Of a stretch of 64,000 nt of DNA, positions 43,042-60,479 are shown piece by piece. The position numbers were made by a program, and so were the translations under genes. The notes beneath the pieces were generated by a model, which was given only the letters and a program-made list of their open reading frames with translations, did not search any database and was not told where the DNA came from. Position 1 is the first letter of the stretch; every line of letters starts with the position of its first letter. Origin of the DNA: Spirosoma radiotolerans. GTDB lineage: Bacteria > Bacteroidota > Bacteroidia > Cytophagales > Spirosomataceae. Location of the stretch: positions 5,968,501 to 6,032,500 of the forward strand of contig NZ_CP010429.1 in the NCBI RefSeq assembly GCF_000974425.1, in the 5' to 3' direction.

Positions 43042-44214
43042 ATGCTAACACCTACTACACTCAATCGTATATTAGCCGTTGTCACCCTGGCTTTCTGCTT
43101 ATCAGCCTGTAACGACCAAGACAATCCAACAACCGTTACACCCCAGCTTCGCAAGTCAATTGCGTATACCAAGCTGACTGATACCACTACGTATGCTAAC
43201 TTCTTCGTGGATGACGCTGGTGTCAAAACCGTAGACCTGACCACCGGTGCAAATCGGCTACTCATGTTCCGGGCCATTAATACCTACAACGGTACAGCCG
43301 TCGGAACAGGCGCTACACTGGATGCCAATGTCCTGAAAAACATGTTCTCGAATACGGGCAACCCATTTTCAGGTACGGCCAATACAGCCCTGAACACATC
43401 GGGCGTTCAGTTGCGCAACGTAACAGCCTCCTCTTTGCCAGCTGCTGATGCGGAAAAAGAACGGCAAACCATCGAGGCTAGTTTTCCCAAAATTGCCACC
43501 GCCAGTCAGTCAGTATCTGCCGTTGCTTCGGAAGGAAAAGCGGGTAAACTGGGTAGTTATCTGGTTGATGCGCAAGGCATCGAATATGGTCAGATCATTC
43601 AGAAAGGCCTGATTGGTGCGTTTCAGGTCGATTATATTGGCAATGTTCTTCTGAGCGACAAGAATCTTGCCTTAGACAATACTACGCTGGTCGCCGGTAA
43701 AAACTATACGCAGCTTGAGCAGAACTGGGATGAAATCTATGGCATCTTAACCGCTAACCCGATCTACGGCGCAAAAGCTACAGCTACCTCATCCGGCGAA
43801 AGCTTCATTGGCTCGTATATCTGGGAGTATAATAAGGATGATTTCCCGAAAATTTATGCGGCTTTATTGAAAGGCCGGGCGGCCATCGTCAACAATGATA
43901 TGACCGTTTTGAAAGAACAGGCGGCTTTCATTCACTTAGCGATGGAGAAAGCCATTGCCAACGCGGCCCTGGGTTATTTGGGCAAATGGAAAACAGCCGG
44001 TACTAATACGGCGGCTGCGGCCCACGCCATGGGCGAAGGCTTAGGCTTCATTTACTCGCTTCGGTATGCTAAACTGAACAAAGCCGATGCGGCCTTTTCT
44101 GATTCAGTCCTGGCCGGACTTATCTCAGCCCCTAATGGTTTTTGGGGCTTGACCAATGCGAAAATCGATGCGGCTTCGGCAGCTATCCGAACTAAGTTCA
44201 ATATACCTGTCTAA
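43042..44214 (+). CDS. DUF4856 lipoprotein
   Basis: 390 residues. Lipoprotein signal with Cys23 (FCLSACNDQD). Family traits are the opening YTKLTDTTTYANFF, FRAINTYNG, and a helical body with QLEQNWDEIYGIL, FIGSYIWEYNKDDFPKIYAALLKGRAAI and HAMGEGLGFIYSLRYAK. DUF4856 proteins are typically encoded next to imelysin-like lipoproteins, and both are mainly helical surface or periplasmic proteins. The molecular role is not established; a part in iron uptake is inferred from the operon, which ends with a FecA-like receptor. First gene of the operon. Confidence 0.88.
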   Translation: MLTPTTLNRILAVVTLAFCLSACNDQDNPTTVTPQLRKSIAYTKLTDTTTYANFFVDDAGVKTVDLTTGANRLLMFRAINTYNGTAVGTGATLDANVLKNMFSNTGNPFSGTANTALNTSGVQLRNVTASSLPAADAEKERQTIEASFPKIATASQSVSAVASEGKAGKLGSYLVDAQGIEYGQIIQKGLIGAFQVDYIGNVLLSDKNLALDNTTLVAGKNYTQLEQNWDEIYGILTANPIYGAKATATSSGESFIGSYIWEYNKDDFPKIYAALLKGRAAIVNNDMTVLKEQAAFIHLAMEKAIANAALGYLGKWKTAGTNTAAAAHAMGEGLGFIYSLRYAKLNKADAAFSDSVLAGLISAPNGFWGLTNAKIDAASAAIRTKFNIPV

Positions 44215-44247
44215 GCACCTGGGTAATCAATCATTTTTCATTCAGAC

Positions 44248-44283
44248 AGAGCGATACTCATGGTGTCGCTCTATCCCTTTTTT
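44248..44283 (+). terminator. Terminator/attenuator between DUF4856 and imelysin genes
   Basis: The stem AGAGCGATAC / GTGTCGCTCT (one G-U) is followed by a T6 run (44278-44283), only 6 bases before the imelysin ATG. It could reduce read-through into the downstream genes. Confidence 0.6.
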
Positions 44284-44288
44284 ACGCC

Positions 44289-45452
44289 ATGACAAGAAAT
44301 AGCTGGAAACGAGTTGGCTTTGTGTGTGTGTTCGTGAGTGCGCTGTGGGCCTGTTCGGGTGGGGGCTCCGATAACCCGGCTCCGGTCACCCCTACTACAC
44401 CAAGCGATCAGGCAGGCAGCGACCGGAAAGCGATGCTGACCAACATTGCCGACAATATTATTCTGCCCAGTTACGCCAACTTCAAAACCAAGTTTGAGTT
44501 GATGCTGACTAAATCGGACGCTTTTGCCGCGAAGCCCGATAAAGCAGCCCTCACCGATTTGCGGCAGGCCTGGGCAGACGCCTACACAGAATGGCAGAAA
44601 GTTGAACTGTTCGATGTAGGACCGGCAGAGCAAAACACACTTCGCAACTTCTTTAATATCTACCCAACCAGCGTTACGGGCATTGAAGAATATGTAGCGG
44701 CAGGTTCGGGTTCTTTTGATGTTCCAGCCTCTTATCCTAAACAGGGCTTTCCGGCCTTAGATTACCTCATCAACGGCCTTGGCGCTACCGACGATGCCAT
44801 TGTAGCCCGCTATACCACAGCCGCCGATGCTGCCAAACGGCTTGCTTACCTGAAACGGCTCACGGCGCAAATGAACACCCAGTTTACGACCGTCTACACC
44901 GCTTGGACGACCGGCGGTTATCGGGATACATTCATCAATTGCACGGCCCTGAATGCCGGTTGCTCAACCTCTAAACTAGTCAATGGCTTTGTGCTCAACT
45001 ACGAACGCTACATTCGTTCGGGAAAATTCGGGATTCCATCGGGCGCTATGACCAACGGGACACCAGCCCCCGACAAAGTAGAAGGGTATTACAAAAAAGA
45101 CCTGTCGCTTACACTGGCCAAAACAGCCCATCAGGCTACGGTTGATTTCTTCAATGGAAAAAGCGTAAAAACAGGACAGGAAGGCCCCGGCCTGAAGTCT
45201 TATCTCACGTCACTTGGCGCTAAGGATAGCAGCACGGGCACATCGCTGGTCGACATTATCAACAAGCAGTTCGACGCGGTTAATCAGCAGCTCAGCACGC
45301 TAAAGCCCAATTTGTCCGACGAAATCAAAACCAACAATGCAGCCGTCTCGCTGGTGTACACCCAAATGCAGAAAGCGGTACGTATGCTCAAGGTCGACAT
45401 GACGACGGCGATGAGCATCACCATTACGTACACGGATAACGACGGCGATTAA
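44289..45452 (+). CDS. Imelysin family lipoprotein
   Basis: 387 residues. Lipoprotein signal with Cys22 (ALWACSGGG). The imelysin fold is recognisable from IILPSYANFKTKFE, LRQAWADAYTEWQKVELFDVGPAE, FNIYPTS and the long helical C-terminal half. The conserved GxHxxE motif of imelysins reads GFPALDYL here, so the His is Pro and the Glu is Asp. Imelysins such as IrpA and EfeM/EfeO-type proteins are linked to iron uptake; direct metal binding through the usual site is doubtful here. Second gene of the operon. Confidence 0.9.
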   Translation: MTRNSWKRVGFVCVFVSALWACSGGGSDNPAPVTPTTPSDQAGSDRKAMLTNIADNIILPSYANFKTKFELMLTKSDAFAAKPDKAALTDLRQAWADAYTEWQKVELFDVGPAEQNTLRNFFNIYPTSVTGIEEYVAAGSGSFDVPASYPKQGFPALDYLINGLGATDDAIVARYTTAADAAKRLAYLKRLTAQMNTQFTTVYTAWTTGGYRDTFINCTALNAGCSTSKLVNGFVLNYERYIRSGKFGIPSGAMTNGTPAPDKVEGYYKKDLSLTLAKTAHQATVDFFNGKSVKTGQEGPGLKSYLTSLGAKDSSTGTSLVDIINKQFDAVNQQLSTLKPNLSDEIKTNNAAVSLVYTQMQKAVRMLKVDMTTAMSITITYTDNDGD

Positions 45453-45461
45453 CTGGTTTTT

Positions 45462-45497
45462 GGTTCACCGGTTGTGCTTTACGCTGACCGGTGAACC
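45462..45497 (+). repeat. Hairpin between imelysin and HTTM genes
   Basis: GGTTCACCGGT (45462-45472) and ACCGGTGAACC (45487-45497) are perfect 11-bp inverted repeats with no T-run. It is likely an mRNA processing or stability element, not a terminator. Confidence 0.7.
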
Positions 45498-45512
45498 AGA
45501 AAGCATCTATTC

Positions 45513-46862
45513 ATGGTAAATTATTTTCGCAACACAACCTCTTCGGCTCCGCTGGCCGTTTTCCGGCTCCTGTTTGGATTGATGCTCTTTGGGAGCATTA
45601 TCCGTTTCTGGAGTAAAGGATGGATTGCCGAATTATATATTCAACCGCATTACTTTTTCCCCTTTTACGGCTTCGAATTTGTTAAACCGCTTGGCTCTCA
45701 CACGTATGAGCTATTTGCTGTTTGTGGACTTTCGGCGCTACTGGTAGCCATCGGTCTGTTTTATCGCGCGGCCATTATAAGTCTTTTTCTGAGCTTCACC
45801 TACATTGAACTGATCGACAAAAGCACGTATTTAAACCATTACTATTTCACAAGTATGGTTTGTCTGCTGCTGGCTTTTCTGCCTGCCCACGCTTATTTTT
45901 CAGTAGATGCGTACCGGCGTCGGAGTTTGGCCGCCGACCAGATACCAGCCTGGTGTCTCGACTCGCTGAAACTGCTGATCACCATTCTGTATGTGTACGC
46001 GGGACTAGCCAAGCTCAATAGTGATTGGTTGCTGAATGCACTACCCCTCCGTATCTGGTTACCAGCCCACAATGATGTTCCGCTTATCGGGTTTTTATTC
46101 AACTACGCCTGGGTACCTGTCGCGTTTAGCTGGTTTGGGTGTTTATATGACCTAAGTATTCCATTCCTGCTTTGGTATCGCCCAACGCGGCCTTGGGCCT
46201 ATGTGGCCGTTGTGGTGTTTCATGGTTTAACCGCGTTTCTGTTTCCCATCGGGATGTTCCCGTACATCATGATCGTGACAGCGCTGATCTTTTTCTCGCC
46301 CGGCTTCCACCTGACCATTATCCGCCAGGTAAGCCATTGGCTGACGATACCGGCCACTTTTCTCTTCACCCACCGAACGTACGTGTACCAACCTGCCGCA
46401 GCTACCGCGATCCGTCTGTTCCTGGGCCTTTTCTTTGTGGTTCAACTGCTTTTCCCATTCCGCTATCTACTCTATCCCGGCGAATTATTCTGGACCGAGC
46501 AAGGCTATCGCTTTTCGTGGCGGGTGATGCTGATGGAAAAAGCGGGTTACGCGCAGTTTACAGTAACAGACAACGCCGGGCACCGAACCATTGTGAACAA
46601 CACGGAATTTCTGACGCCTTTACAGGAAAAAATGATGGCTACCCAACCGGATATGTTGCTGCAATACGCGCATATACTCCGGGATTATTACGCCCAGCAT
46701 GGATTTCAGCAACCGGCCGTATACGTCGATTCCTATGTGGCGCTCAACGGCCGGTTGGGACGCCCATTGATTGACCCAAAAACGAATCTGGCTATCCAGC
46801 AGGACTCATTTACCCACAAAGAGTGGATCACCTCCTTCCATGACAACATTTACGGTTTTTAA
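45513..46862 (+). CDS. HTTM domain membrane protein (vitamin-K-carboxylase-like)
   Basis: 449 residues with at least eight hydrophobic segments. The HTTM domain is recognisable from LAVFRLLFGLMLFGSIIRFW, FYRAAIISLFLSFTYIELID and STYLNHYYFTSMVCLLLAFL. These recall the membrane part of vitamin K-dependent gamma-carboxylase, including the YLNHYY segment near the carboxylase active region. A soluble C-terminal part of about 130 residues follows (FRYLLYPGELFWTEQGYRFSW). Bacterial HTTM proteins have no proven reaction. Its gene overlaps the start of the FecA-like receptor by 23 bases, so the two are translationally coupled. Confidence 0.88.
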   Translation: MVNYFRNTTSSAPLAVFRLLFGLMLFGSIIRFWSKGWIAELYIQPHYFFPFYGFEFVKPLGSHTYELFAVCGLSALLVAIGLFYRAAIISLFLSFTYIELIDKSTYLNHYYFTSMVCLLLAFLPAHAYFSVDAYRRRSLAADQIPAWCLDSLKLLITILYVYAGLAKLNSDWLLNALPLRIWLPAHNDVPLIGFLFNYAWVPVAFSWFGCLYDLSIPFLLWYRPTRPWAYVAVVVFHGLTAFLFPIGMFPYIMIVTALIFFSPGFHLTIIRQVSHWLTIPATFLFTHRTYVYQPAAATAIRLFLGLFFVVQLLFPFRYLLYPGELFWTEQGYRFSWRVMLMEKAGYAQFTVTDNAGHRTIVNNTEFLTPLQEKMMATQPDMLLQYAHILRDYYAQHGFQQPAVYVDSYVALNGRLGRPLIDPKTNLAIQQDSFTHKEWITSFHDNIYGF

Positions 46863-49320
46863 TTTTCTTAAGTCAGCGTTAGCAGTTCAATTGTCCCGCA
46901 GAGAGCGACTATTTTCGCTGATCTGTCTCATTTGCATCCTCCCAACAGCCAGCGTTCTGGCGCAATACCAGCTTTCGGGCAGGGTAACTCATCAGGATAG
47001 TGTTGCCGTAAACGGATGTACAATCTATTTGAACAATGGGAATCGTACTACCCTGACGGATAGCCTCGGCCAATTCAGCTTTTCAAACCTGCCCAATGGC
47101 ACTTATGTCCTGCACACGAGTTGCCCCGATTTTAAAGCTGCCCGGCAGACGGTACGCATCGCCGGACAGGATCAGTCTGTTGTCATTCGGGTCATGAGTC
47201 GGCTGGAGACTTTGAACGAGGTAACCGTTACCGATAAGCAATCGGACTTCGGTTTCACGCGGATGCGGGGCGTTGAGAATATGGGAATTTATGAAGGCAA
47301 AAAATCAGAAGTGATCATTCCGGATCAGCTGGTGGCAAACCTGTCGACCAACAACGCCCGTCAGATTTACGCCCGTGTGGCTGGCCTGAATATCTGGGAA
47401 AACGAAGGTGCCGGACTTCAACTCAGCGTTGGCGGCCGTGGTCTCGACCCGAACCGAAGTTCGAATTTCAACGTGCGCCAGAATGGCTACGACATCAGCG
47501 CCGATGCCCTGGGCTACCCGGAGAGTTATTACACCCCACCGATAGAGGCCGTCGGGCGTATCCAGATCGTGCGGGGAGCGGCTTCCCTTCAGTACGGTAC
47601 GCAATTTGGCGGACTACTCAATTTTGTCATGAAAAAACCCATTGCCAACCGAAAGCTGGAACTGACGGCCCGCCAGACCATTGGTTCATTTGGGTTTTAC
47701 AATGCCTTTACCAGCGCCAGTGGCACCGTTGGCAAGCTGAGTTATTACACGTTTTTTCAGTATAAGAAAGGCGATGGCTGGCGGCCAAATTCTCACTTTA
47801 CGAACTATACAGCCTTTGCTGATATTGACTACCGGCTTTCGGAAAACACGACGCTGGGGGTCGACATCACCCAAATGAGTTATCTGGCGCAGCAACCCGG
47901 TGGTCTGACAGATGCCATGTTTCTGGAAAATCCCCGGCAAAGCAACCGGGAACGCAACTGGTTTAAGGTCAACTGGACAATGCCCGCCCTGCATGTCGAC
48001 CATAAAATCAACGCCAACAATGAAGTCAATTTGCGCGTCTTCGGCCTGTATGCCTATCGGTATTCGCTGGGATTTCGTCCTAACCGTGTGGCCAGTGTTG
48101 ACGACAACAGTGAGCGCGACCTGATTAAAGGTGATTTTCAGAACTATGGTGCCGAAGCCCGGTACTTAAAACGGTATTATGTGGGCAAAAAACAGGCCGT
48201 TTTACTGGTCGGCACTCGGTATTACCACGGCTATAACCACAGTATACAAGGGCTGGGGAGCACGGGAAAAGATGCCAACTTCACGTTTGTCGACAATGAA
48301 CAGGGCATTGCTTCCGACTACCAGTTTCCGAACCGAAACGTGTCGCTCTTTGCCGAAAACATTCTGTATATAGGCGACAAGCTATCCATTACACCAGGCG
48401 TTCGCTTCGAGTACATTCACACAACGGCCGACGGTTTCTACGGCACCGTCACACGCGATCTGGCAGGCAACATCATCGACGCCACCCGCACGAACGAAGT
48501 CCGCACCAATGGGCGGCAGTTCGTGATTGGCGGACTTGGCCTTAGTTATAAGCCAACGGCACAACTGGATATTTACGGTAATTTGTCGCAGAATTACCGC
48601 TCCATTACATTCAGCGATATGCGGATTGCCAATCCATCGTCGGTTATTGATCCCAATTTGCAGGACGAAAAAGGGTACTCACTTGATCTGGGCATTCGAA
48701 GCACCCAAACCACGCTGTACAATTTCGACGTCAGTGCCTTTTACCTCAACTATAACAACCGCATCGGCGAGGTCCAGTTCTACGACGCCAATGACCGCGT
48801 TCTCCGTCGCCGGGGCAACATCGGGCAGGCCGTCATTATGGGCCTGGAGGCCTACGCCGAAGGCGATTTCCTGCGGCTGGCCAATCCCGGCAATCCAGAT
48901 TTAAGCGGGGTTCTGTTTGCTAACGTCGCGCTGATTCACTCGACCTACAAAGCCAGCGAAATTGCCGGGGTTGTCGGCAATCAGGTCGAGTTCGTCCCCA
49001 ACGTGAACCTGAAAAGTGGTGTCCGGCTGGGGTATAAGAATCTGAAAGCGTCGTTTCAGTACACGTATCTTTCCGATCAATTTTCCGATGCCACCAACTC
49101 CCGCGAGGGGGGCGTGTCAGCGGTTATTGGCCTGATTCCGGCTTACTCGATTATGGATGCCAGCCTGTCGTATCAGTTCAGTCGGTTTCGGCTGGAAGGC
49201 AGCCTCAACAACCTGGCAAACCGGGCTTACTTCACCCGCCGGGCCACGGGCTATCCGGGACCCGGCATTCTTCCATCCGATGGACGTGGGTTATACGTGA
49301 CCATTCAGGCGAAGTTGTAA
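46840..49320 (+). CDS. TonB-dependent receptor, FecA-like
   Basis: 826 residues from the ATG at 46840, which lies inside the 3' end of the HTTM gene. A long N-terminal signal (ICLICILPTASVLAQ) precedes a CarboxypepD_reg-like domain (LSGRVTHQDSVAVNGC; LTDSLGQFSFSNLPNG). The plug has NARQIYARVAGLNIWENEGAG, VGGRGLDPNRSSNFNVRQNG and IQIVRGAASLQYGTQFGG, which resembles ferric-dicitrate (FecA) receptors. The barrel ends GRGLYVTIQAKL. It imports a metal complex, most likely iron, energised by TonB. Last gene of the operon; convergent with the beta-propeller gene. Confidence 0.93.
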   Translation: MTTFTVFNFLKSALAVQLSRRERLFSLICLICILPTASVLAQYQLSGRVTHQDSVAVNGCTIYLNNGNRTTLTDSLGQFSFSNLPNGTYVLHTSCPDFKAARQTVRIAGQDQSVVIRVMSRLETLNEVTVTDKQSDFGFTRMRGVENMGIYEGKKSEVIIPDQLVANLSTNNARQIYARVAGLNIWENEGAGLQLSVGGRGLDPNRSSNFNVRQNGYDISADALGYPESYYTPPIEAVGRIQIVRGAASLQYGTQFGGLLNFVMKKPIANRKLELTARQTIGSFGFYNAFTSASGTVGKLSYYTFFQYKKGDGWRPNSHFTNYTAFADIDYRLSENTTLGVDITQMSYLAQQPGGLTDAMFLENPRQSNRERNWFKVNWTMPALHVDHKINANNEVNLRVFGLYAYRYSLGFRPNRVASVDDNSERDLIKGDFQNYGAEARYLKRYYVGKKQAVLLVGTRYYHGYNHSIQGLGSTGKDANFTFVDNEQGIASDYQFPNRNVSLFAENILYIGDKLSITPGVRFEYIHTTADGFYGTVTRDLAGNIIDATRTNEVRTNGRQFVIGGLGLSYKPTAQLDIYGNLSQNYRSITFSDMRIANPSSVIDPNLQDEKGYSLDLGIRSTQTTLYNFDVSAFYLNYNNRIGEVQFYDANDRVLRRRGNIGQAVIMGLEAYAEGDFLRLANPGNPDLSGVLFANVALIHSTYKASEIAGVVGNQVEFVPNVNLKSGVRLGYKNLKASFQYTYLSDQFSDATNSREGGVSAVIGLIPAYSIMDASLSYQFSRFRLEGSLNNLANRAYFTRRATGYPGPGILPSDGRGLYVTIQAKL

Positions 49321-49338: not shown

Positions 49339-50550
49339 CTACAGCCCTTCCATCGTCCGTACCACAATGGTAGAGTTTCCGTTATCCTTTTTTTGTTCAT
49401 ACGCCATTAGTACGCCGTGTTTCGTAGCGAGCACTGCCGGATAAGTAGCGTTAACCGTTTCAGGGGTAATGTACGTCGTAGCACTGGCCTTCCCCTGGGC
49501 GAAAGTCCGCATGCCAATTCGCTGCACGAAGGAGCCCATTTCGCCCGAGCCGTCCGTCGAGATGGCTTCATCCCAGACCCAGACAAGCTGATCGCCAACA
49601 GTAGCCACCTGCGGATGTTTTGCCCGGCTGGAGAGCACACTCGACGCCAGCTTTTTTGAGCCCAACTGCGCCAGCCGCAAACCAACGGCCTCTTCTTTTC
49701 CCGAGAACCAGGTCATCAACAGATCATTACCCAACTGCGCCACCACCGGGCCCGCATGCGGGCAGGCATTGACCTGCCAATGGTCGGCATAGACTACCTG
49801 TGGCTTGCTGAACGTTTTGCCGCCATCGGCCGACACAACCGTGCTGATGTCGCGGGAAGCTGGTTCGCCGGTTTTGGCCGCAGGCAACAGATCGCGGTAG
49901 GTCAGGTGAATGTTTTTCTTCGCGTCGACAAACACGTTTGTCCGGCAACATTGACAGGCATTGTTATCGACCAGTACCGCCGGACCAAAGCCTTTCCCTT
50001 TCGTTGTTTGCGCGAATACGACCGGGCGCCCTTCCTGACCGGCCAGTTTCTCATCGAGCCAAACCACGCCAATTTCGCCATTGGGCAGGCGGGTCAGGTC
50101 ACTAAATGAATGGCTACTACCGGGCGACGTGTTTTGATGAACGGGTTTAGGCTCAGACCAGGTTTTGCCGTTATCGGCAGACATAGTATAGAGCAGATCA
50201 CCCGCAAAACGTGACTCCTTCGTTGGATTCGGCACCTCAAAAACCGCCACGAACGTACCGTCGGCTTTCACCGCAATTTTGGGCATACCTTCCGCATGAG
50301 TCGACAGATTAGCGGGCGCTTTTACCTTGATTTTCTCACCAAAGGTTTGTCCATCCGCTGCGATAGCGACGTAAAAAGCGGCTTCTTTTTCGTTGATTTT
50401 CTCTACCCAGCTTAGTAACGGAGTACCCTTGGCATCGGTTGTCAGGCGGGGAACGGCACCTACAAACTGAGGGTCAGAAACCGACGTTTCCGGGACTGGC
50501 GTAAACGTTATCAACCAGCCAACAATGAAAATTAGAGATGCGTAATTCAT
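49339..50550 (-). CDS. Sialidase-fold beta-propeller with CQCC motif
   Basis: 403 residues from the ATG at 50550 (MNYASLIFIVGWLITFTPVP, a signal peptide). The upstream reading overlaps the receptor gene and is rejected. BNR/Asp-box blades (SADNGKTWSEP; SADGGKTFSKP) indicate an exo-alpha-sialidase-like six-bladed propeller, but the arginine triad and other sialidase residues are not evident. Instead there are DNNACQCCRTNV (Cys199, Cys201, Cys202) and NACPHAGP (Cys263, His265), a likely metal or redox site. It lies 22 bases downstream of a TonB receptor gene. A role in handling the metal taken up by the receptor is inferred. Confidence 0.8.
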   Translation of the reverse strand: MNYASLIFIVGWLITFTPVPETSVSDPQFVGAVPRLTTDAKGTPLLSWVEKINEKEAAFYVAIAADGQTFGEKIKVKAPANLSTHAEGMPKIAVKADGTFVAVFEVPNPTKESRFAGDLLYTMSADNGKTWSEPKPVHQNTSPGSSHSFSDLTRLPNGEIGVVWLDEKLAGQEGRPVVFAQTTKGKGFGPAVLVDNNACQCCRTNVFVDAKKNIHLTYRDLLPAAKTGEPASRDISTVVSADGGKTFSKPQVVYADHWQVNACPHAGPVVAQLGNDLLMTWFSGKEEAVGLRLAQLGSKKLASSVLSSRAKHPQVATVGDQLVWVWDEAISTDGSGEMGSFVQRIGMRTFAQGKASATTYITPETVNATYPAVLATKHGVLMAYEQKKDNGNSTIVVRTMEGL

Positions 50551-50572
50551 GGTTATTTGCTTTGTGTCTGGC

Positions 50573-52912
50573 TTATTTTCCTGAAAAAGTATACTGCACC
50601 CCAACCACAATCGTACGCGGGGCCGCCGGGGTGTAGGTGGTTCGGTCGGTGGCGTTGTTTCCTCTTGTGGCGTTGGTGGCAAAAAGGGCGTTCGTGGCGT
50701 TCAGAACGTTGGAAAATACCTCAATTCCTCTCCACTGATAACCCATGCGGACATTGGCAAAGTCATAGCCATCGTACCGAACCGTATTGGTCTGATTCTG
50801 GTACCAGCCAGCCACATGCTGCCACTCAACCGACGTCCGGAAATTCTTAAGCCAGGCGGGATAATAGCTCAGTTCGGTATTCCAGAGCGTTCGCGGAGCC
50901 GATGGCATGTCTTTCCCATTCACATTTTGTACGGCATCTGACGACCGCTGACTCAGCGTAAACTCGACAAACTGGTGTACGGCATGCGTACCACCAAACC
51001 GAAAAAATACCTGCTTCGACGGTCGGTACGTAATCCCGACTTCAACGCCCCGGTGGAGCGTTCGACCGGCCGATTGGTAGTCGGTTGAGTTGTCGGGCTG
51101 GCGGATATTGAGGAGCTCATTTGTGCCCTTCATCTGATAGAGCGCGGCATCTACATATACTTTATTCTTCAGCAGCGAAGCCCAGCCGCCAATCTCTATA
51201 TTGTCGAATTTGGCGGGCTGAAGGTTGTAGTAGAACAAATCGCCGGTAGTTGTTGGCGTTGTACGCTTGAGAAAAATTGCCGTGAGCGCGGGGGGCGAAA
51301 AGCCTTTTGCGTAGTTGGCATACAGGCCCATATTGTTGCTCAACGCAAAAGTTGCCCCGACTTTAGGCGTTAGCTGGCTGTAATCTTTCCCGCCCGAACT
51401 TTTGTCCAGCGCGTTGGTATAATCGAAAGCCATACGGTCATAACGCAGGCCAGCCGATACCCGTACTTTGGGCAACGGTTCGAAATCATACTGCACGTAG
51501 GCCGCCGTATTATGAATATCTGCCTGATAATTGGCTAACTGGATATCAGGCCGTTCAGCGATCTGCGTATACGTCTCCACTGACTTCTTGTCGGCTCGCA
51601 ATTGTGCCGTCAAATTGGTCTGGTAAGCCAGGTACGTGTTGGGCGATAGATCGAGGGTAGCCCCGGCAATGAGTTTACTATTCAGAAAACTAAGCCGTTG
51701 GGTATGCTGGGCAATGAAGCCATAGCTCTTGAAATCGTTGCTGTTGATCTGCCCCGTAGCCGTCGTCGCGCCTGTTGTCCATCGGATCGAATAGGCTGGG
51801 TTTTGAGCAACCGTGTTGTTCCGAACAAAGACCGTCAGGAACGATTGCGACCCGTTTGCCCAGTCATGTTCCAGCGTTAGCCGATTACGCATAGAGACCG
51901 TTTTTCGATACGTAAAATCGGTGGTGCTGACGTATTGTCGGGCAAAAAACGCAGTACTGTCGACACTGCCGCTGGTCTGCGAATTGTAGTTATTATACGA
52001 AAGGGTGCCCGTTAACCGCGTTTTGGTTGTGAATGCGTATTCGAGCCGGGTAAAATACGAGGACTTGTCGTAGTCGGAACTGGCCAGCCAGGCGTTGCGC
52101 TGCCGCGAAACAAAGCCCCCAACGTAGATACCAAATTGACCCTGTGTGGCACCCGCCCCAACCTGCACGCGCTGGTAGCCCCACTGATCGGCCTGAACTC
52201 CAATACGCACCGTAGGTACGGCTGTTGGCCGCTGGGTGATAAAATTCACAGCGCCACCTACCGCTTCCGGCCCATAAATTGACGAGACGGGCCCCTTGAC
52301 CACCTCAATGGAGCTCACCGTAAACTGATTCATTTCGAGCAGCGCGTTGTGATTGAACACGCCCATTGGCCGGATGGGAACTCCATCCTCCATGTACAGA
52401 AAATACGCGTTGGTGGTCATCGGTTGGCGAATGGCCATCATGTGCTGCTCATTATTGAGATTCACCATGAGCACGCCGGGTGTTTTGTTGATGACTTCGT
52501 AGATACTTGTCGGCTTGGTCTCGTTGATCAGCCTGGCCGATAATTTGGAAATGGCGATGGGTGTTTCGGTACGCAATGCAGCCTCGCGATTGGCCGTTAC
52601 AACGACCGTTTGCAGGTCTTCTACTGCCTGTTCGAGGGCGATACGAGTAGACTGACCAGCCAGTAAGCTAACTTCCTGTTTCCGATACCCAACCGCTGAT
52701 ACAATCACCTTCGTAGTGTTGCTCAATGGCCAAAAGTGTCCGTTGGCATCCGTACTGGTCCCCCTACCATCGGGAAACAACACCGTTACACCCGGCAACG
52801 GCTCTTTGGTCTGGGCATCGAACACAAGGCCCTGATGCCTAGCTTGTGCCGACGCACTCAAGGTAATACCAACCCATAACCCAATGGTTATGAGGATCTT
52901 AAAAATAGTCAT
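50573..52912 (-). CDS. TonB-dependent receptor with CarboxypepD_reg-like domain
   Basis: 779 residues. Signal peptide (GLWVGITLSASAQ), a CarboxypepD_reg-like domain (GLVFDAQTKEPLPGVTVLFPDG; GTSTDANGHFWPLS), a plug (SIYEVINKTPGVLMVNLNNEQ; SSIEVVKGPVSSIYGPEAVGGAVNF), and a barrel ending in VVGVQYTFSGK. The plug contains MVNLNNEQHMMAIRQPMTTN, a Met/His-containing stretch near the extracellular path. The ligand is not identifiable. The neighbours, two Cys-motif membrane proteins upstream and the CQCC propeller downstream, suggest a metal, perhaps copper. Confidence 0.9.
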   Translation of the reverse strand: MTIFKILITIGLWVGITLSASAQARHQGLVFDAQTKEPLPGVTVLFPDGRGTSTDANGHFWPLSNTTKVIVSAVGYRKQEVSLLAGQSTRIALEQAVEDLQTVVVTANREAALRTETPIAISKLSARLINETKPTSIYEVINKTPGVLMVNLNNEQHMMAIRQPMTTNAYFLYMEDGVPIRPMGVFNHNALLEMNQFTVSSIEVVKGPVSSIYGPEAVGGAVNFITQRPTAVPTVRIGVQADQWGYQRVQVGAGATQGQFGIYVGGFVSRQRNAWLASSDYDKSSYFTRLEYAFTTKTRLTGTLSYNNYNSQTSGSVDSTAFFARQYVSTTDFTYRKTVSMRNRLTLEHDWANGSQSFLTVFVRNNTVAQNPAYSIRWTTGATTATGQINSNDFKSYGFIAQHTQRLSFLNSKLIAGATLDLSPNTYLAYQTNLTAQLRADKKSVETYTQIAERPDIQLANYQADIHNTAAYVQYDFEPLPKVRVSAGLRYDRMAFDYTNALDKSSGGKDYSQLTPKVGATFALSNNMGLYANYAKGFSPPALTAIFLKRTTPTTTGDLFYYNLQPAKFDNIEIGGWASLLKNKVYVDAALYQMKGTNELLNIRQPDNSTDYQSAGRTLHRGVEVGITYRPSKQVFFRFGGTHAVHQFVEFTLSQRSSDAVQNVNGKDMPSAPRTLWNTELSYYPAWLKNFRTSVEWQHVAGWYQNQTNTVRYDGYDFANVRMGYQWRGIEVFSNVLNATNALFATNATRGNNATDRTTYTPAAPRTIVVGVQYTFSGK

Positions 52913-52970
52913 AATGATCGTTTAAGTCGAGAAAATGAAATGAAACACTCGACCGCGCAAGCGGCCCGAC

Positions 52971-53384
52971 TTAACGTTTGGGGGGACGAAACAGGCTCGT
53001 TACACAAGCCACAGGAGACGCTAAATGATAGGAAAAGAAGTTGGCCAATACCAGCGAAACCCAGGTTGGGCGAAATAGAAAAGGCACATGTGGCTGGCAA
53101 AACAGGTGAAGTACGGGCGTACTCTGTACGCGCTCGGTTGTTTCTTTATCCTGTTTATCCTGACGGGCTTTTAACTGTTTGGCCAGGTAGCATTGCCCAT
53201 CACAATGAAGTTGAGGCTTGTCCCGATTCTGACACAATACACGGGCGATGTACGCTTTGTTCAACTGGTAATGCGCAATGATTCCCCACTGGCTGAACGT
53301 TGGCAGCAGTGTTGTGAGCAGTAGCCAATAGATGACAATCGTCCGCACGGGCGGCCTGTTAATAAGAGCAGAACCGGTCAGCAT
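52971..53384 (-). CDS. Small membrane protein with NRDKPQ-HC-CYL motif, copy 1
   Basis: 137 residues from the ATG at 53384; other in-frame ATGs lie further upstream, so the start is uncertain. One N-terminal hydrophobic segment (IVIYWLLLTTLLP) is followed by NKAYIARVLCQNRDKPQLHC and DGQCYL, then a charged helix (KARQDKQDKETTERVQ) and a second, weaker hydrophobic region. The Cys/His cluster C-x(8)-H-C-x(3)-C looks like a metal-binding or redox site. Similar proteins with CENxDKPxxxCxGKCYL are common in Bacteroidota near metal and TonB genes; function unknown. The downstream TonB receptor gene starts 58 bases after its stop. Confidence 0.75.
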   Translation of the reverse strand: MLTGSALINRPPVRTIVIYWLLLTTLLPTFSQWGIIAHYQLNKAYIARVLCQNRDKPQLHCDGQCYLAKQLKARQDKQDKETTERVQSTPVLHLFCQPHVPFLFRPTWVSLVLANFFSYHLASPVACVTSLFRPPKR

Positions 53385-53597
53385 ATAGCAGACCATAAGC
53401 CGTTGGGCGTTGCTACTGTAAACACAGCCAATGATAGGCCGCATACCGTATAAATTGCAGTACGGTTCATGGATATTTAAATCAGTTGATGGATGCGACA
53501 GCACGATTGCCGCTTACGTACAGTCGTTGATTTGCGGCAAAGCAGGCAGAAGCCCCGCCATGAACAGACGGAAACTAGAGCCAATCCAGAAAGCTGA

Positions 53598-53975
53598 TTA
53601 AACCTGAGGGGGGCGAAACAGGCCCGATCGTGGAGCCAGATAAGTCGGAAACTGATATGTCGAAAACGCGACCGGCAACAGAGCCGCCCAGTACTGGCGA
53701 AATTGGAAGGGCAGATTAGTCTGGCAAAACAGTTGTAAAACGGGTGTATTCTGCACTCGCTCGGTCGTTTCCTTATCCTGCCGGTCCTGTTGCGCTTTCA
53801 GTTTTTTGGCCAGGTAGCATTGCCCATCGCAGTGGAGTTGTGGCTTGTCCCGATTTTCGCAAAGGACACGGGCAATGTACGCTTTGTTGACCTGATAATA
53901 CGCAAGGGTTCCCCACGGGCTAACGGTCGGCAGCAGCGTCGCGATAAGGAGAATATAAACCAGTGCGTTCTTCAT
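53598..53975 (-). CDS. Small membrane protein with NRDKPQ-HC-CYL motif, copy 2
   Basis: 125 residues. Paralogue of the next gene on the strand: over the 56-residue core from NKAYIAR to LFCQ, 50 positions are identical by my count. N-terminal hydrophobic segment (ALVYILLIATLLP), Cys39, His48-Cys49 and Cys53 in ENRDKPQLHCDGQCYLAKKL, a charged helix and Cys84. The C-terminal end SGLFRPPQV mirrors SLFRPPKR of the other copy. First gene of the minus-strand set that ends with the receptor and the CQCC propeller. The duplication looks recent and both copies are intact. Confidence 0.8.
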   Translation of the reverse strand: MKNALVYILLIATLLPTVSPWGTLAYYQVNKAYIARVLCENRDKPQLHCDGQCYLAKKLKAQQDRQDKETTERVQNTPVLQLFCQTNLPFQFRQYWAALLPVAFSTYQFPTYLAPRSGLFRPPQV

Positions 53976-56651: not shown

Positions 56652-56802
56652 GTTGTTGATTTAGTAAAATGGTCGATCTCGTTCGCGGCCGAACTCCATA
56701 CGCCTACTACTCTCCGCATAATTTCCCAATACGCCCCCATCTGGCCCCGCCAAGAAAGGGCTCTTTCCCATTTTTGACTACCGGTTGCATTCATCCACGT
56801 TT

Positions 56803-56810
56803 TACCTTTG
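56803..56810 (+). promoter_or_regulatory. -7 box of the DUF6660-TonB-CDF set
   Basis: TACCTTTG, a full TAnnTTTG match. The downstream ATG is at 56816, so the mRNA would be leaderless or nearly so. TTG occurs at 56785-56787. Confidence 0.5.
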
Positions 56811-56815
56811 CCAGC

Positions 56816-57133
56816 ATGAACGGGGTGCTTTATCTTTTTTCGATATGGCTATTGCTTCTGACGGGCCTCCCCTGTCCAGATGCCGAATGCCATGCCCACA
56901 CGGATAAACTAGCCCAATCGTCGGACGCTCATTCCGACGACGATCATAAACACAAAGCTCCTTGTAGTCCCTTTTGCCATTGTGCTACCTGCCCTGGCTT
57001 TTCCATACCCCGGCCATTCAGCTATGCCTGTCCGTCCCAGCTAAGCGCGCCCATTTCATCGCAGCGGGTATTTTCGTACGACGCTTCTAGCCAGACTATG
57101 GTTGTTCTGGCCGTCTGGCAACCGCCCCAATAA
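56816..57133 (+). CDS. Small exported His/Cys-rich protein (DUF6660-like)
   Basis: 105 residues from the ATG at 56816 (MNGVLYLFSIWLLLLTGLPC), the start of a signal peptide; a longer reading upstream runs through the promoter. Cys residues lie at 20, 25, 50, 54, 56, 59 and 72, and a His/Asp stretch (DAHSDDDHKHKAPC) precedes the cluster CSPFCHCATCP. This resembles the DUF6660 family found upstream of metal-related TonB receptors in Bacteroidota. A periplasmic or surface metal-binding role is inferred from composition and from the CDF exporter downstream. First gene of the set. Confidence 0.78.
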   Translation: MNGVLYLFSIWLLLLTGLPCPDAECHAHTDKLAQSSDAHSDDDHKHKAPCSPFCHCATCPGFSIPRPFSYACPSQLSAPISSQRVFSYDASSQTMVVLAVWQPPQ

Positions 57134-57291: not shown

Positions 57292-59550
57292 ATGATGAAA
57301 ACCGTTTTTTTACTCTTATTCCTACTTATAACCCGTGTTAGCGGGCTAGCTTATTCACAGGATACACTCCGTATTTCCGTTCGCCATGCGACTACACAAC
57401 AGCCTATTGCCGGGGCTACCGTCGTTCTGATCGGTACAGCAATGGGTACGGTTACCAATGGGGTTGGTTATGCCCAATTACACACGCCATCAGTTGCTCC
57501 GTACCAGATTCGGGTTTCGGCAGTCAGCTTTCACTCTGTTACACAGACAATATCTGTGCCAGTTCGTGATACGATCCAGATAGCGCTCGAAACAGCCGAA
57601 GAAGCGCTGGAAGAAGTCACGGTGTCATCAACGCGCGGTGGCCGGAGCGTTGCGGATGAACCCACCCGCGTCGAAGTGATTGACGGTGAGGAACTGGACG
57701 AGAAAGCTAACATGCAACCCGCTAATATTGCGGTGATTCTGCGCGAAAGTCCGGGTATTCAGGTACAGCAGACCTCGGTTATGTCGGCCAACGCTACCTT
57801 CCGGATTCAGGGCTTGGATGGCCGCTACACCCAGCTTTTGCAGGATGGGCTTCCTCTTTACAGCGGTTTTTCGAGCGGCCTGAGCCTGATGCAGGTGCCA
57901 CCCCTGAACCTGAAACAGGTGGAGGTCGTAAAAGGATGCCAGTCGACGTTGTATGGCAGCGGGGCCATTGCGGGGCTGGTCAATCTGGTTACCAAGGAGC
58001 CTACCCGCGAGCGGGACCTTTCTTTTTTGATCAATGGCACGTCGGCACTTGGGCTTGACCTGAACGGCTATTATGCCCAGCGAAATGAGAAAGTTGGCCT
58101 GACGTTCTATGCAACCCGCAATCTGCAACGCGCCTACGACGCCAACTCGGATCAGTTTTCGGATTTGCCCCAAACGGCCCGAACCACGCTGCAACCGAAG
58201 CTATTCTGGTATCCAAGTCCAACGACGACCGTATCGGCAGGATTGATCTGGTCTGACGAACAACGAACGGGCGGCTATCTGCCAACCATCAAAAATGAAT
58301 CGACGTTGGGGTATACAGAAGCCAACAATTCACAACGACTAGCCACTCAGTTCAGGCTGGAGAAACGATTTACCAACGGCCTTCTGACGATAAAAAATAG
58401 CATCAGTCGCTTTAAACGAGCTATTGTTCTACCCAACTATCGGTTCGACGGATTGCAGCAGTCGTCGTTCTCGGAAATCAGCTACTTCACGCATCAGTCA
58501 AAAGCAGACTGGATTGTCGGGCTGAACCTCTGGACAGATGCGTTTCGTGATTCGAACCCAATCCATGTACCTGCGCTAGCCGATGTTTATCACCAGACCA
58601 TTGCGGGGCTTTTCGTGCAGAATACGCTGACCTTGTCGGAACAGCTAAGTCTGGAAACGGGTCTACGCGCCGATGTTGTCAATACAAGCACCAGCAACCC
58701 GTCTGACCCAGCAAAGCCAACACTATTTCTGTTACCACGCTTTTCGCTTCTGTATCGGGCATCCGATCACTGGACGAGTCGGCTGGGGGGCGGACTGGGC
58801 TATAAAGCGCCGACTATTTTTACCGAGGACGCCGAACGATTATCGTTTCAGGGAGTCGATTTAAGGTCCATTCGCAGCGATCAAACGGAGTCGTCGATAG
58901 GAGTAAACTGGGACATTAATTACCGAACTCAACTAGGCAACGAAACCACACTGTCCATCAATCAGTTATTCTTTTATACAACATTGAACCGACTGACCGT
59001 ATTGAGCGCACAACCAAATGGCTACGGGTTTCGGACGGCCAATGGCAATCTATCGACGCGCGGATTTGAAACGAATATCCGTCTGGTGTACCACGATTTT
59101 CATACGTTCCTGGGCTACTCGTTTATTGATACGCAGCGCCGATACGATGACCTAACCGGTATAACGCCACTAACCGCCAAACACCGACTGTACTTTACAA
59201 CACTCTACGAAACGGATCGAATCAAGACCGGTTTTGAAGCGTTTTATACTGGGCAGCAGCAACGTACCAATGGAACAACCACGCGGGATTACTGGACCAT
59301 TGGCTACATGATTGAACGTAAATGGAGTTTTGGTGGCGCTTCACAAGGCCGGGCCACGTTAGGCCGAGCCAATGCAGGCGGGGCCATCAGAGGAAGTGTT
59401 TTTATTAATTTCGAAAACATCCTGGATGTGCGCCAGTCCCGGTTCGAATCATTGGTGAGTGGCGCTGTTACCCAGCCGACTTTTGTTACAGATATTTATG
59501 CCCCCACCGACGGGCGAATCATCAATGGCGGTATTAAACTGAATTTATAA
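57292..59550 (+). CDS. TonB-dependent receptor next to CDF exporter
   Basis: 752 residues (ATG at 57292, or the second ATG one codon later). Signal peptide (FLLLFLLITRVSGLAYSQ), a CarboxypepD_reg-like domain (LRISVRHATTQQPIAGATVV; GTVTNGVGYAQL), plug (IAVILRESPGIQVQQTSVMS; RIQGLDGRYTQLLQDGLPLY; VEVVKGCQSTLYGSGAIAG) and barrel. The plug resembles BtuB/CirA-type receptors. It ends 2 bases before the CDF gene, which indicates co-expression with a zinc/cobalt-type exporter. The ligand, likely a divalent metal complex, is inferred only from context. Confidence 0.92.
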   Translation: MMKTVFLLLFLLITRVSGLAYSQDTLRISVRHATTQQPIAGATVVLIGTAMGTVTNGVGYAQLHTPSVAPYQIRVSAVSFHSVTQTISVPVRDTIQIALETAEEALEEVTVSSTRGGRSVADEPTRVEVIDGEELDEKANMQPANIAVILRESPGIQVQQTSVMSANATFRIQGLDGRYTQLLQDGLPLYSGFSSGLSLMQVPPLNLKQVEVVKGCQSTLYGSGAIAGLVNLVTKEPTRERDLSFLINGTSALGLDLNGYYAQRNEKVGLTFYATRNLQRAYDANSDQFSDLPQTARTTLQPKLFWYPSPTTTVSAGLIWSDEQRTGGYLPTIKNESTLGYTEANNSQRLATQFRLEKRFTNGLLTIKNSISRFKRAIVLPNYRFDGLQQSSFSEISYFTHQSKADWIVGLNLWTDAFRDSNPIHVPALADVYHQTIAGLFVQNTLTLSEQLSLETGLRADVVNTSTSNPSDPAKPTLFLLPRFSLLYRASDHWTSRLGGGLGYKAPTIFTEDAERLSFQGVDLRSIRSDQTESSIGVNWDINYRTQLGNETTLSINQLFFYTTLNRLTVLSAQPNGYGFRTANGNLSTRGFETNIRLVYHDFHTFLGYSFIDTQRRYDDLTGITPLTAKHRLYFTTLYETDRIKTGFEAFYTGQQQRTNGTTTRDYWTIGYMIERKWSFGGASQGRATLGRANAGGAIRGSVFINFENILDVRQSRFESLVSGAVTQPTFVTDIYAPTDGRIINGGIKLNL

Positions 59551-59552
59551 AC

Positions 59553-60479
59553 ATGGCTCACGATCATAACCACGACCACGCCGGTCACCACCACGGTCCC
59601 ACCGTATTGACGTCCATCAACCGGGCGTTGATTATCGGGGCCATTCTGAACGCGGGCTATGTCGTTGTGGAATTCGTCCTCGGATTCTATTATAATTCAC
59701 TCGCCCTCGTTGCCGATGCGGGCCATAACCTGAGCGATGTGGCCAGCCTGTTGCTGTCACTGCTCGCCTTTCGGTTGGCGCGGGTTCGGCAAACGCCGAG
59801 TTTTACGTATGGCTTCCGAAAAAGCACAGTACTGGCGTCGCTCACCAATGCCGTTATTCTTTTGATCACCATTGGCGCTATTTTGTGGGAAAGTATCAGC
59901 CGGTTCCGGCACCCCGAACCAGTAGCGGGTGGGGCTGTAGCCTGGGTTGCGGGCCTGGGAATGCTAGTCAATGCGGCCTCCGCCATGCTGTTTTTTCGGG
60001 ATAAAGAGCATGATTTGAATGTAAAAGGGGCTTATCTGCACCTGGCAACCGATGCGCTGGTATCACTGGGTGTGGTCGTGTCGGGCATTGTTATCAGTTA
60101 TACCAACTGGACCTGGCTCGATCCGGTTATCGGCATTCTGGTTGCCGTTGTGATTATGGGATCGACCTGGCGTTTGCTGACGGATAGTCTGCGGCTTTCA
60201 ATGGATGGCGTCCCGGCGGACATCGACCTGCCAACCGTACTGGCTGACCTGCGGGCGGTGTCGGGTGTGCAGGACGTACACCATGTGCATGTGTGGGCGA
60301 TGAGCACCACCGAAAATGCCCTGACGGCTCACCTCGTGCTGCAACCGGGCCTCTCCGATTCGCAGATTGCCACCCTTAAGCACGAGGCCCGCCACAGGCT
60401 TGAACATCAGAAGATCAGTCATGCTACGCTCGAAACCGAAACCACGACTAAAGATGAATGTGAAGCAGAAGTGTGCTAA
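59553..60479 (+). CDS. Cation diffusion facilitator (CzcD/ZitB-like)
   Basis: 308 residues. His-rich N-terminus (MAHDHNHDHAGHHHGP), then six hydrophobic helices. Metal-site residues are visible: ADAGHNLSD (Asp55, His58, Asp62) in helix 2 and HLATDAL (H-x3-D) in helix 5. The C-terminal cytosolic domain has VQDVHHVHVWAMST. CDF proteins exchange Zn, Co or Cd for protons to remove excess metal from the cytosol. Start codon 2 bases after the receptor stop. Importer and exporter in one operon suggest regulated metal homeostasis. Confidence 0.95.
   Translation: MAHDHNHDHAGHHHGPTVLTSINRALIIGAILNAGYVVVEFVLGFYYNSLALVADAGHNLSDVASLLLSLLAFRLARVRQTPSFTYGFRKSTVLASLTNAVILLITIGAILWESISRFRHPEPVAGGAVAWVAGLGMLVNAASAMLFFRDKEHDLNVKGAYLHLATDALVSLGVVVSGIVISYTNWTWLDPVIGILVAVVIMGSTWRLLTDSLRLSMDGVPADIDLPTVLADLRAVSGVQDVHHVHVWAMSTTENALTAHLVLQPGLSDSQIATLKHEARHRLEHQKISHATLETETTTKDECEAEVC

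Follow-up and report, generated by a model that had tools for sequence, protein, structure and literature searches.

The window analysed here, a stretch of 64 kb from Spirosoma radiotolerans whose genome is a single contig of 7.03 Mb, carries on its minus strand four consecutive genes, which encode two small cysteine-containing proteins (small1 and small2), a TonB-dependent receptor, and a propeller protein. The features of this set are as follows.

53598..53975, minus strand: small1, 125 aa, ends LFRPPQV; putatively exported protein with three cysteines (Cys3), first gene of the set and proposed nascent-chain copper sensor
52971..53384, minus strand: small2, 137 aa from the ATG at 53384, ends LFRPPKR; tandem paralogue of small1, its stop codon facing the receptor gene
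52965..52974, minus strand: 5' arm of the proposed stem, TTAAGTCGGG; includes the small2 stop codon and pairs with 52922-52931
52922..52931, minus strand: 3' arm of the proposed stem, CTCGACTTAA; ends 9 nt ahead of the receptor ATG
50573..52912, minus strand: TonB-dependent receptor, 779 aa; carboxypeptidase-regulatory-like, plug, and barrel domains (Pfam)
49339..50550, minus strand: CxCC propeller, 403 aa; CQCC at 199-202, CPH at 263-265; sialidase-like fold, probable signal peptide

The open reading frames of the window bear out the four minus-strand genes in a row that a first-pass annotation had described, and the Cys/His clusters it had named are there to the letter: C-x8-H-C-x3-C in small1 and small2, CQCC and CPH in the propeller. 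Two of the starts are our choice. The small2 frame was listed as 52971-53504 and was shortened to the ATG at 53384, a start that is uncertain; the propeller frame, listed as 49339-50682, was set to begin at the ATG at 50550, since in its longer form it runs into the receptor gene. On one side the set is flanked by a thioesterase gene and a gene for a Cys-rich CWC protein. From the other side a plus-strand run at 43042-49320 converges on it, with DUF4856, imelysin, HTTM/VKGC, and FecA-like TonB genes in a row, which we take to be an iron-type uptake set.

For the comparisons we used two collections. The named loci are the best 80 of 278 confirmed stretches from a scan of named genomes, while the phylum sample consists of 40 stretches hand-picked from small-protein matches so as to avoid the vicinity of propellers, 37 of which gave 39 small genes. 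The two small proteins of the window are 62% identical over their alignment. Searches with small1 returned its own genome at 100%, and 72 of the 99 related genomes searched have a relative (E 0.001); within the phylum, relatives of the small proteins occur in 153 of 395 genomes, again at E 0.001. At E 0.01 neither small1 nor small2 matched any family of Pfam or NCBIfam, and DUF2946 (PF11162) was absent among 25 of the 26 families given for 40 small-protein members (Pfam, E 1). An alignment of 40 sequences (the two of the window and 38 from named loci) has C39, C49, and C53 invariant, together with N41, P45, G51, L55, P122, and P123. The proposed motif C-x8-HC-x3-C hence stands in its cysteines, conserved in 40/40, and takes the general form C-x9-C-x3-C. 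Its histidine is the commonest residue at the position and is not conserved; an essential histidine was rejected, as it is present in only 24/40 proteins of the alignment, 43/72 of the named loci, and 16/36 of the phylum sample.

The other constant feature lies at the C-terminus. Of 72 small proteins from the named loci, 71 have two consecutive prolines within their last 8 residues, with 1-5 residues after them, compared with 13 of 1,245 other ORFs from the same loci, or 12 of 400 when these are limited to ORFs shorter than 220 aa; in the lone exception (L123) the PP ends a few residues farther in. All 39 of the 39 small proteins in the phylum sample end in PP plus 2-7 residues. The residue directly in front is H, Q, or R in 64/72 and 30/39 cases, respectively. 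From the last cysteine to the PP we count 63-72 residues in 40/40 proteins of the alignment and 63-70 in 36/39 of the phylum sample, the 36 being those in which the motif pattern was found. This spacing is nearly constant despite a mean identity of only 16% over residues 61-115. The predicted structure has a long N-terminal helix (2-29) and further helices at 31-38 and 52-76; past residue 80 it is of low confidence and has neither helix nor strand. Judged from the hydrophobic N-terminal helix, the small proteins are probably exported.

Proteins that are exported, carry an invariant Cys3 motif, and stand beside an importer could be membrane-anchored periplasmic chaperones or ligands, which hand copper from the receptor to the propeller and in which the C-terminal PP plays a structural role. 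The first-pass annotation had suggested chaperones or sensors of the imported ion, and the model, with its long N-terminal helix and the helices around the motif, would agree with the former. However, the part past residue 80 has no predicted fold and yet keeps its length and its PP. Furthermore, the small genes head TonB or MbnP operons; in the loci listed they always precede their downstream partners and never sit between them, and a chaperone offers no place for the stem between stop and start described below. We therefore regard the chaperone role as unlikely and do not favour it. The sensor role comes close, but the small proteins would act in cis, as nascent chains, on the next gene.

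The propeller has relatives in 48 of 99 related genomes (E 1e-10) and in 95 of 395 phylum genomes (E 1e-20), the closest named ones being from Spirosoma with 72-77% identity (best five among the matches listed). In 59 of the best 80 named loci a small gene and a TonB gene both lie upstream of it, so that the linkage of small Cys protein, TonB receptor, and CxCC propeller, on which the idea of a common set depends, recurs in Bacteroidota. The named loci include Spirosoma, Fibrisoma, Larkinella, Fibrella, Runella, Arcicella, Aquirufa, and Emticicia, but also Chryseolinea, Pontibacter, Adhaeribacter, Chitinophaga, and one Flavobacterium. Among the 21 loci lacking the full cassette, 9 lie near contig ends with less than 3.6 kb of upstream sequence; in the other 12 of the 80 there is enough room, and the call for the small gene or the TonB gene is missing. 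Counted over propeller matches, a small gene is located upstream on the same strand in 26 of 54, including all 23 best-scoring ones; this count draws on part of the match lists (54 propeller and 42 small-protein rows) and may overstate the misses. Many propellers from the 395 phylum genomes lack a small gene in their vicinity, and the cassette accordingly covers only part of the propeller family. The small-protein family, in turn, is wider than the cassette.

Which substrate does the set handle? The first-pass annotation had proposed uptake of a thiophilic metal such as copper. The neighbourhood of the 80 named loci contains clusters of MbnP-like (17), MbnH-like (17), NosD (14), NosZ (12), SCO1/SenC (6), and YHS (4) proteins, each cluster being named from one tested member; the tested NosD, NosZ, SCO1/SenC, and YHS members score above the cut-off, the MbnP-like (TIGR04052) and MbnH-like (TIGR04039) ones below their NCBIfam cut-offs. 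At least one of MbnP, MbnH, SCO1, NosZ, and NosD is present in 31/80 loci. The 12 NosZ loci (4 Runella, 5 Aquirufa, one Sandaracinomonas, one Spirosomataceae MAG, and one Bacteroidetes MAG) are not independent events. The MbnP/MbnH pair (TIGR04052, TIGR04039, PF20243) does not belong to the set of the window, but its operons are headed by the same small-protein family as the cassette. Indeed, the next same-strand gene after the small gene in the phylum sample encodes a Plug protein in 15/39, MbnP (PF20243) in 14/39, YHS in 3/39, and YtkA in 1/39 cases. A further cluster, c6, comprises proteins of 146-188 aa near small, TonB, or MbnP genes in 14/80 loci (L069, L074, L080, L096, and ten others); its member from L080 gave no Pfam or NCBIfam match. 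On plasmids, propeller relatives were found in 64 records. Two of these, from Roseobacter plasmids, were opened and sit in copper-resistance operons with neighbours annotated as copper oxidase, copper-binding protein, plastocyanin, and metal P-type ATPase; they have CTCC for CQCC and GCPV for ACPH, so that CPH is not kept.

The receptor is a TonB-dependent receptor by its plug (PF07715) and barrel (PF00593) matches, both above the Pfam cut-off. An alignment of 68 receptors (67 that precede a propeller in the named loci and the one of the window) has 90 invariant columns, among them 5 His and 3 Met: M149, H157, M159, H188, H403, H620, H646, and M669. Going by the alignment, these are likely copper ligands. 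The median share of Met, His, and Cys is 3.2% in the 68 receptors and 1.9% in 22 others that belong to the same cluster. The model for NosA/OprC-type copper receptors, presumably TIGR01778, which we take to be the NCBIfam model for TonB-dependent copper receptors, is absent among the 21 families listed for our receptor. Within NCBIfam the receptor scores best against general siderophore and haemin models, in each case under the cut-off.

The propeller passes the Pfam BNR_2 cut-off, and its AlphaFold2 model is of high confidence (mean pLDDT 92.6, pTM 0.90). Foldseek returned sialidases as best matches with TM values near 0.5 (best solved match 8gn6) and, among the matches listed, Photorhabdus lectins with 0.68 by target length. 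The residues C199, C201, C202, C263, P264, and H265 are invariant in 51 propellers (the one of the window and 50 of the 80 named loci), which means that all four cysteines are conserved in 51/51. The predicted strands place CQCC after strand 192-198 and before 205-208; CPH is framed by strands 232-240 and 269-273. Provided that the Asp boxes 124-131 and 240-247 are C-D turns, both would be located in D-to-A loops of neighbouring blades, a proximity judged from strand order. The face of the D-to-A loops is the active-site face of sialidases. CQCC and CPH may thus form one metal site, or else engage in disulfides. With GH33 sialidases the protein shares the propeller fold and the Asp boxes, but it has CxCC and CPH and lacks the Arg of the (F/Y)RIP motif: where a solved sialidase has the Arg of YRIP, the profile alignment puts a Gly (propeller consensus HAEGMPK). 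This agrees with the earlier description of a sialidase fold without an evident active site, and we rejected the propeller as an ordinary sialidase on the grounds of this Gly.

Outside the cassette, 15 of 16 stretches gave a propeller ORF. CxCC is present in 15/15 of these and CPH in 3/15 (L231, L232, and L246). The propellers of L231 and L232 follow genes that are TonB-like by size alone (809 and 765 aa). The former is a second propeller of our own genome (C1:2083500-2091000), with CDCC and CPH; no small gene was found there. In another genome (L240, G410:C6:29600-38700) a propeller with CxCC but no CPH comes immediately after a gene for a 588-aa protein, which by its N-terminus we take to be a CusB-type adaptor, and small genes that appear to encode heavy-metal-domain-like proteins are nearby.

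One may ask whether the set imports another metal or substrate, such as zinc, iron, or a glycan, with the propeller as a sialidase-like enzyme. The siderophore and haemin scores of the receptor, the sialidase-like fold, and the adjoining imelysin/HTTM/TonB set would fit this idea. The copper-linked neighbours, the Gly opposite the YRIP Arg, and the cysteines invariant in 51 propellers speak against it, and we consider it very unlikely. Gene linkage and conservation support the proposal that the imported metal is thiophilic, and copper is the most likely one; we infer that the propeller is a copper-binding exported protein.

We then come to the RNA between the genes. In the window the region of the small2 stop codon is predicted to form a stem with the start region of the receptor gene (p 0.005 versus 2,000 shuffles). 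Between the small1 stop and the small2 start no stem was found for any of three guesses of the small2 start (p 0.63, 0.94, and 0.62). When the stop segment was compared with the start segment of the next gene, 20/50 loci gave p<0.05 compared with 34/398 control gaps, these loci being related and the statistics uncorrected for kinship; in 30/50 loci the stem is not significant. The significant helices cover the whole stop codon in 20/20 loci, compared with 13/34 controls. The stem is significant in 14/34 cases of the phylum sample, 5/39 having been left out for long gaps, and in 12/29 related genomes. A duplex test that tolerates bulges gave 12/49 loci versus 21/400 controls. The start codons were assigned by rule, in some cases wrongly: three loci (L045, L053, and L055) show probable upstream GTG starts, with the stem intact.

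The arms covary. The pairs TTTAAGTCGA/TCGACTTAAA, TAAGTCAGA/TCTGACTTA, and CAGGTTTGATT/GATCAAACCTG come from the 50-locus test, GGTTTTAGTCGAAT/ATTCGACTAAAACT from the related-genome set, and in some loci of the phylum sample the start codon lies inside the 3' arm, for example in CATAAAAACG/CGTTTTTATG. For a named 12-pair stem the arms of 21 related loci align, with 72.6% paired cells and changes on both sides in 7/12 pairs. Its covariation is 0.223 versus 0.161 in shuffled alignments, 0/500 of which reached that value, and slid versions gave 0.03-0.14. RNAalifold predicted no pair for the 21 intergenic regions, in which the loop lengths vary much. The gap from the small-gene stop to the TonB start is also stable against shuffles (median z -2.56, 39/50 below -1.5) when compared with 80 control gaps (median z -1.43, 39/80 below -1.5). 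Minimum-energy folds join the stop and start regions in 45/50 loci, but whole-region folding is a weak argument, because 158/316 control gaps also join both regions.

Even with no arrest, translation would be coupled by a stem that covers the stop codon. Such a stem could accordingly be a device of mere constitutive coupling between the small gene and the receptor, free of a copper-dependent pause, and the fact that half of the ordinary gaps fold with both regions linked speaks in favour of this. Coupling of this kind leaves the Cys and PP residues, invariant at near-constant spacing, unaccounted for, and the stem on the stop codon is in excess of the controls and shows covariation. We find constitutive coupling rather doubtful.

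We prefer to read the small proteins as regulators, because they have the anatomy of the nascent-chain copper sensors CruR and CutF: a small, exported protein that carries a Cys motif and, at its C-terminus, a PP, and whose gene immediately precedes a copper-related one. This is a likeness in function and not in homology. The C-terminal PP at near-constant spacing, the position at the head of TonB and MbnP genes, and the proposed stem from stop to start are the evidence for such a regulator. According to the portion of the report at hand, CruR (DUF2946), in bp2923-bfrG-bp2921 of Bordetella pertussis, is a small exported Cys-motif protein that heads a TonB receptor operon (PMC9426467). The Cys motif, the C-terminal PP, the order small protein-TonB receptor-third gene, and the near-fixed Cys-PP spacing are common to both. 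CruR, however, has CXXC and RAPP with 45 residues between them, Rho termination in a 162-bp gap, and a DUF2946 domain (PMC9426467, same portion); here we have C-x9-C-x3-C and (H/Q/R)PP at a distance of 63-72 residues, a proposed stem at the stop codon, a CxCC propeller as third gene, and no DUF2946 match among the families listed. CutF of Rhodobacter capsulatus, as far as the available text of its report goes, has CxxxC, a Sec signal, a proline-rich C-terminus, and an intergenic stem that hides the next start (PMC9973294). It resembles our proteins in the Cys motif, the C-terminal prolines, the head position, and the intergenic stem that we propose; it differs in that a multicopper oxidase gene follows it, whereas TonB or MbnP genes follow the small genes here. 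The same text states that copper enhances the CutF pause and counts Bacteroidota as a large share of the catalogued CutF-like proteins (PMC9973294), so our family may be part of that catalogue. That text does not describe the Cys3-PP motif, the MbnP operons, or the stop-codon stem. Finally, a 2025 survey, in the sections accessible to us, describes RAPP/RGPP arrest peptides in small proteins that are secreted and encoded ahead of TonB and copper genes, and reports copper-related RAPP/RGPP uORFs as missing from Bacteroidota (PMC12992588). The C-terminal PP is common to both, but here it directly follows H, Q, or R.

We consider it probable that the four genes form a copper-uptake operon in which small1 and small2 sense copper as nascent chains and act in cis. 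The mechanism would follow the CutF/SecM logic, in which a ribosome over the stop codon holds the stem open, with the sign of CruR. Copper or one of its complexes would cross the outer membrane through the TonB receptor, and the exported propeller would probably receive or buffer the copper via its cysteines. The small protein would be exported during its translation, and the ribosome may pause at the PP just ahead of the stop codon. About 68 residues should suffice to carry a Cys past the translocon. At the pause the Cys3 motif, 63-72 residues back, could thus have arrived on the translocon's periplasmic side. At low copper the paused ribosome would sit on the stop codon and keep the stem open, so that the receptor is made; copper on the nascent motif would end the pause, the stem would close, and the receptor would be switched off. 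The arrest, the copper binding, and the direction of the switch are those we infer. The direction was assumed, because receptor expression at low copper needs the sign of CruR, and CutF is reported with the opposite sign.

Another candidate lies in the window itself. A His/Cys-rich DUF6660 protein (56669-57133, plus strand), which ends WQPPQ, heads a second TonB operon, continued by a TonB gene (57292-59550) and a cation efflux gene (59553-60479). The DUF6660 ORFs of related genomes end in WQPP plus a few residues in 19/20 cases, and a stop-to-start stem is significant in 6/20, always on the stop codon; the copy of the window has none (p 0.79). The gene after DUF6660 is a TonB gene in 2/5 and an RND pump in 3/5 of those checked. 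Among HYC_CC_PP relatives encoded ahead of TonB-type or RND genes (L171-L190), 0/20 have PP in the last 14 residues, and about 11/17 show a significant helix that begins just past the stop codon and not on it.

Nascent-chain copper sensors are already known, and CutF-like proteins of Bacteroidota are already catalogued. No paper on the cassette, the Cys3-(H/Q/R)PP family, or a copper propeller turned up in searches of an open-access library. More tentatively, and with a chance that we put just short of even, the small proteins may represent a phylum-wide copper switch of the Bacteroidota's own, in which a Cys3 nascent chain ends in (H/Q/R)PP and the stop codon is one arm of a stem closing the next start. 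It would serve both uptake (TonB plus CxCC propeller) and the MbnP/MbnH operons, with DUF6660 as a second such family before RND efflux and other TonB genes. The small-protein family is a concrete arrest-type candidate for copper in Bacteroidota, with another proline motif, a proposed RNA element open to testing, and a defined importer, and a copper role is suggested for propellers that are publicly recorded as "sialidase family protein".
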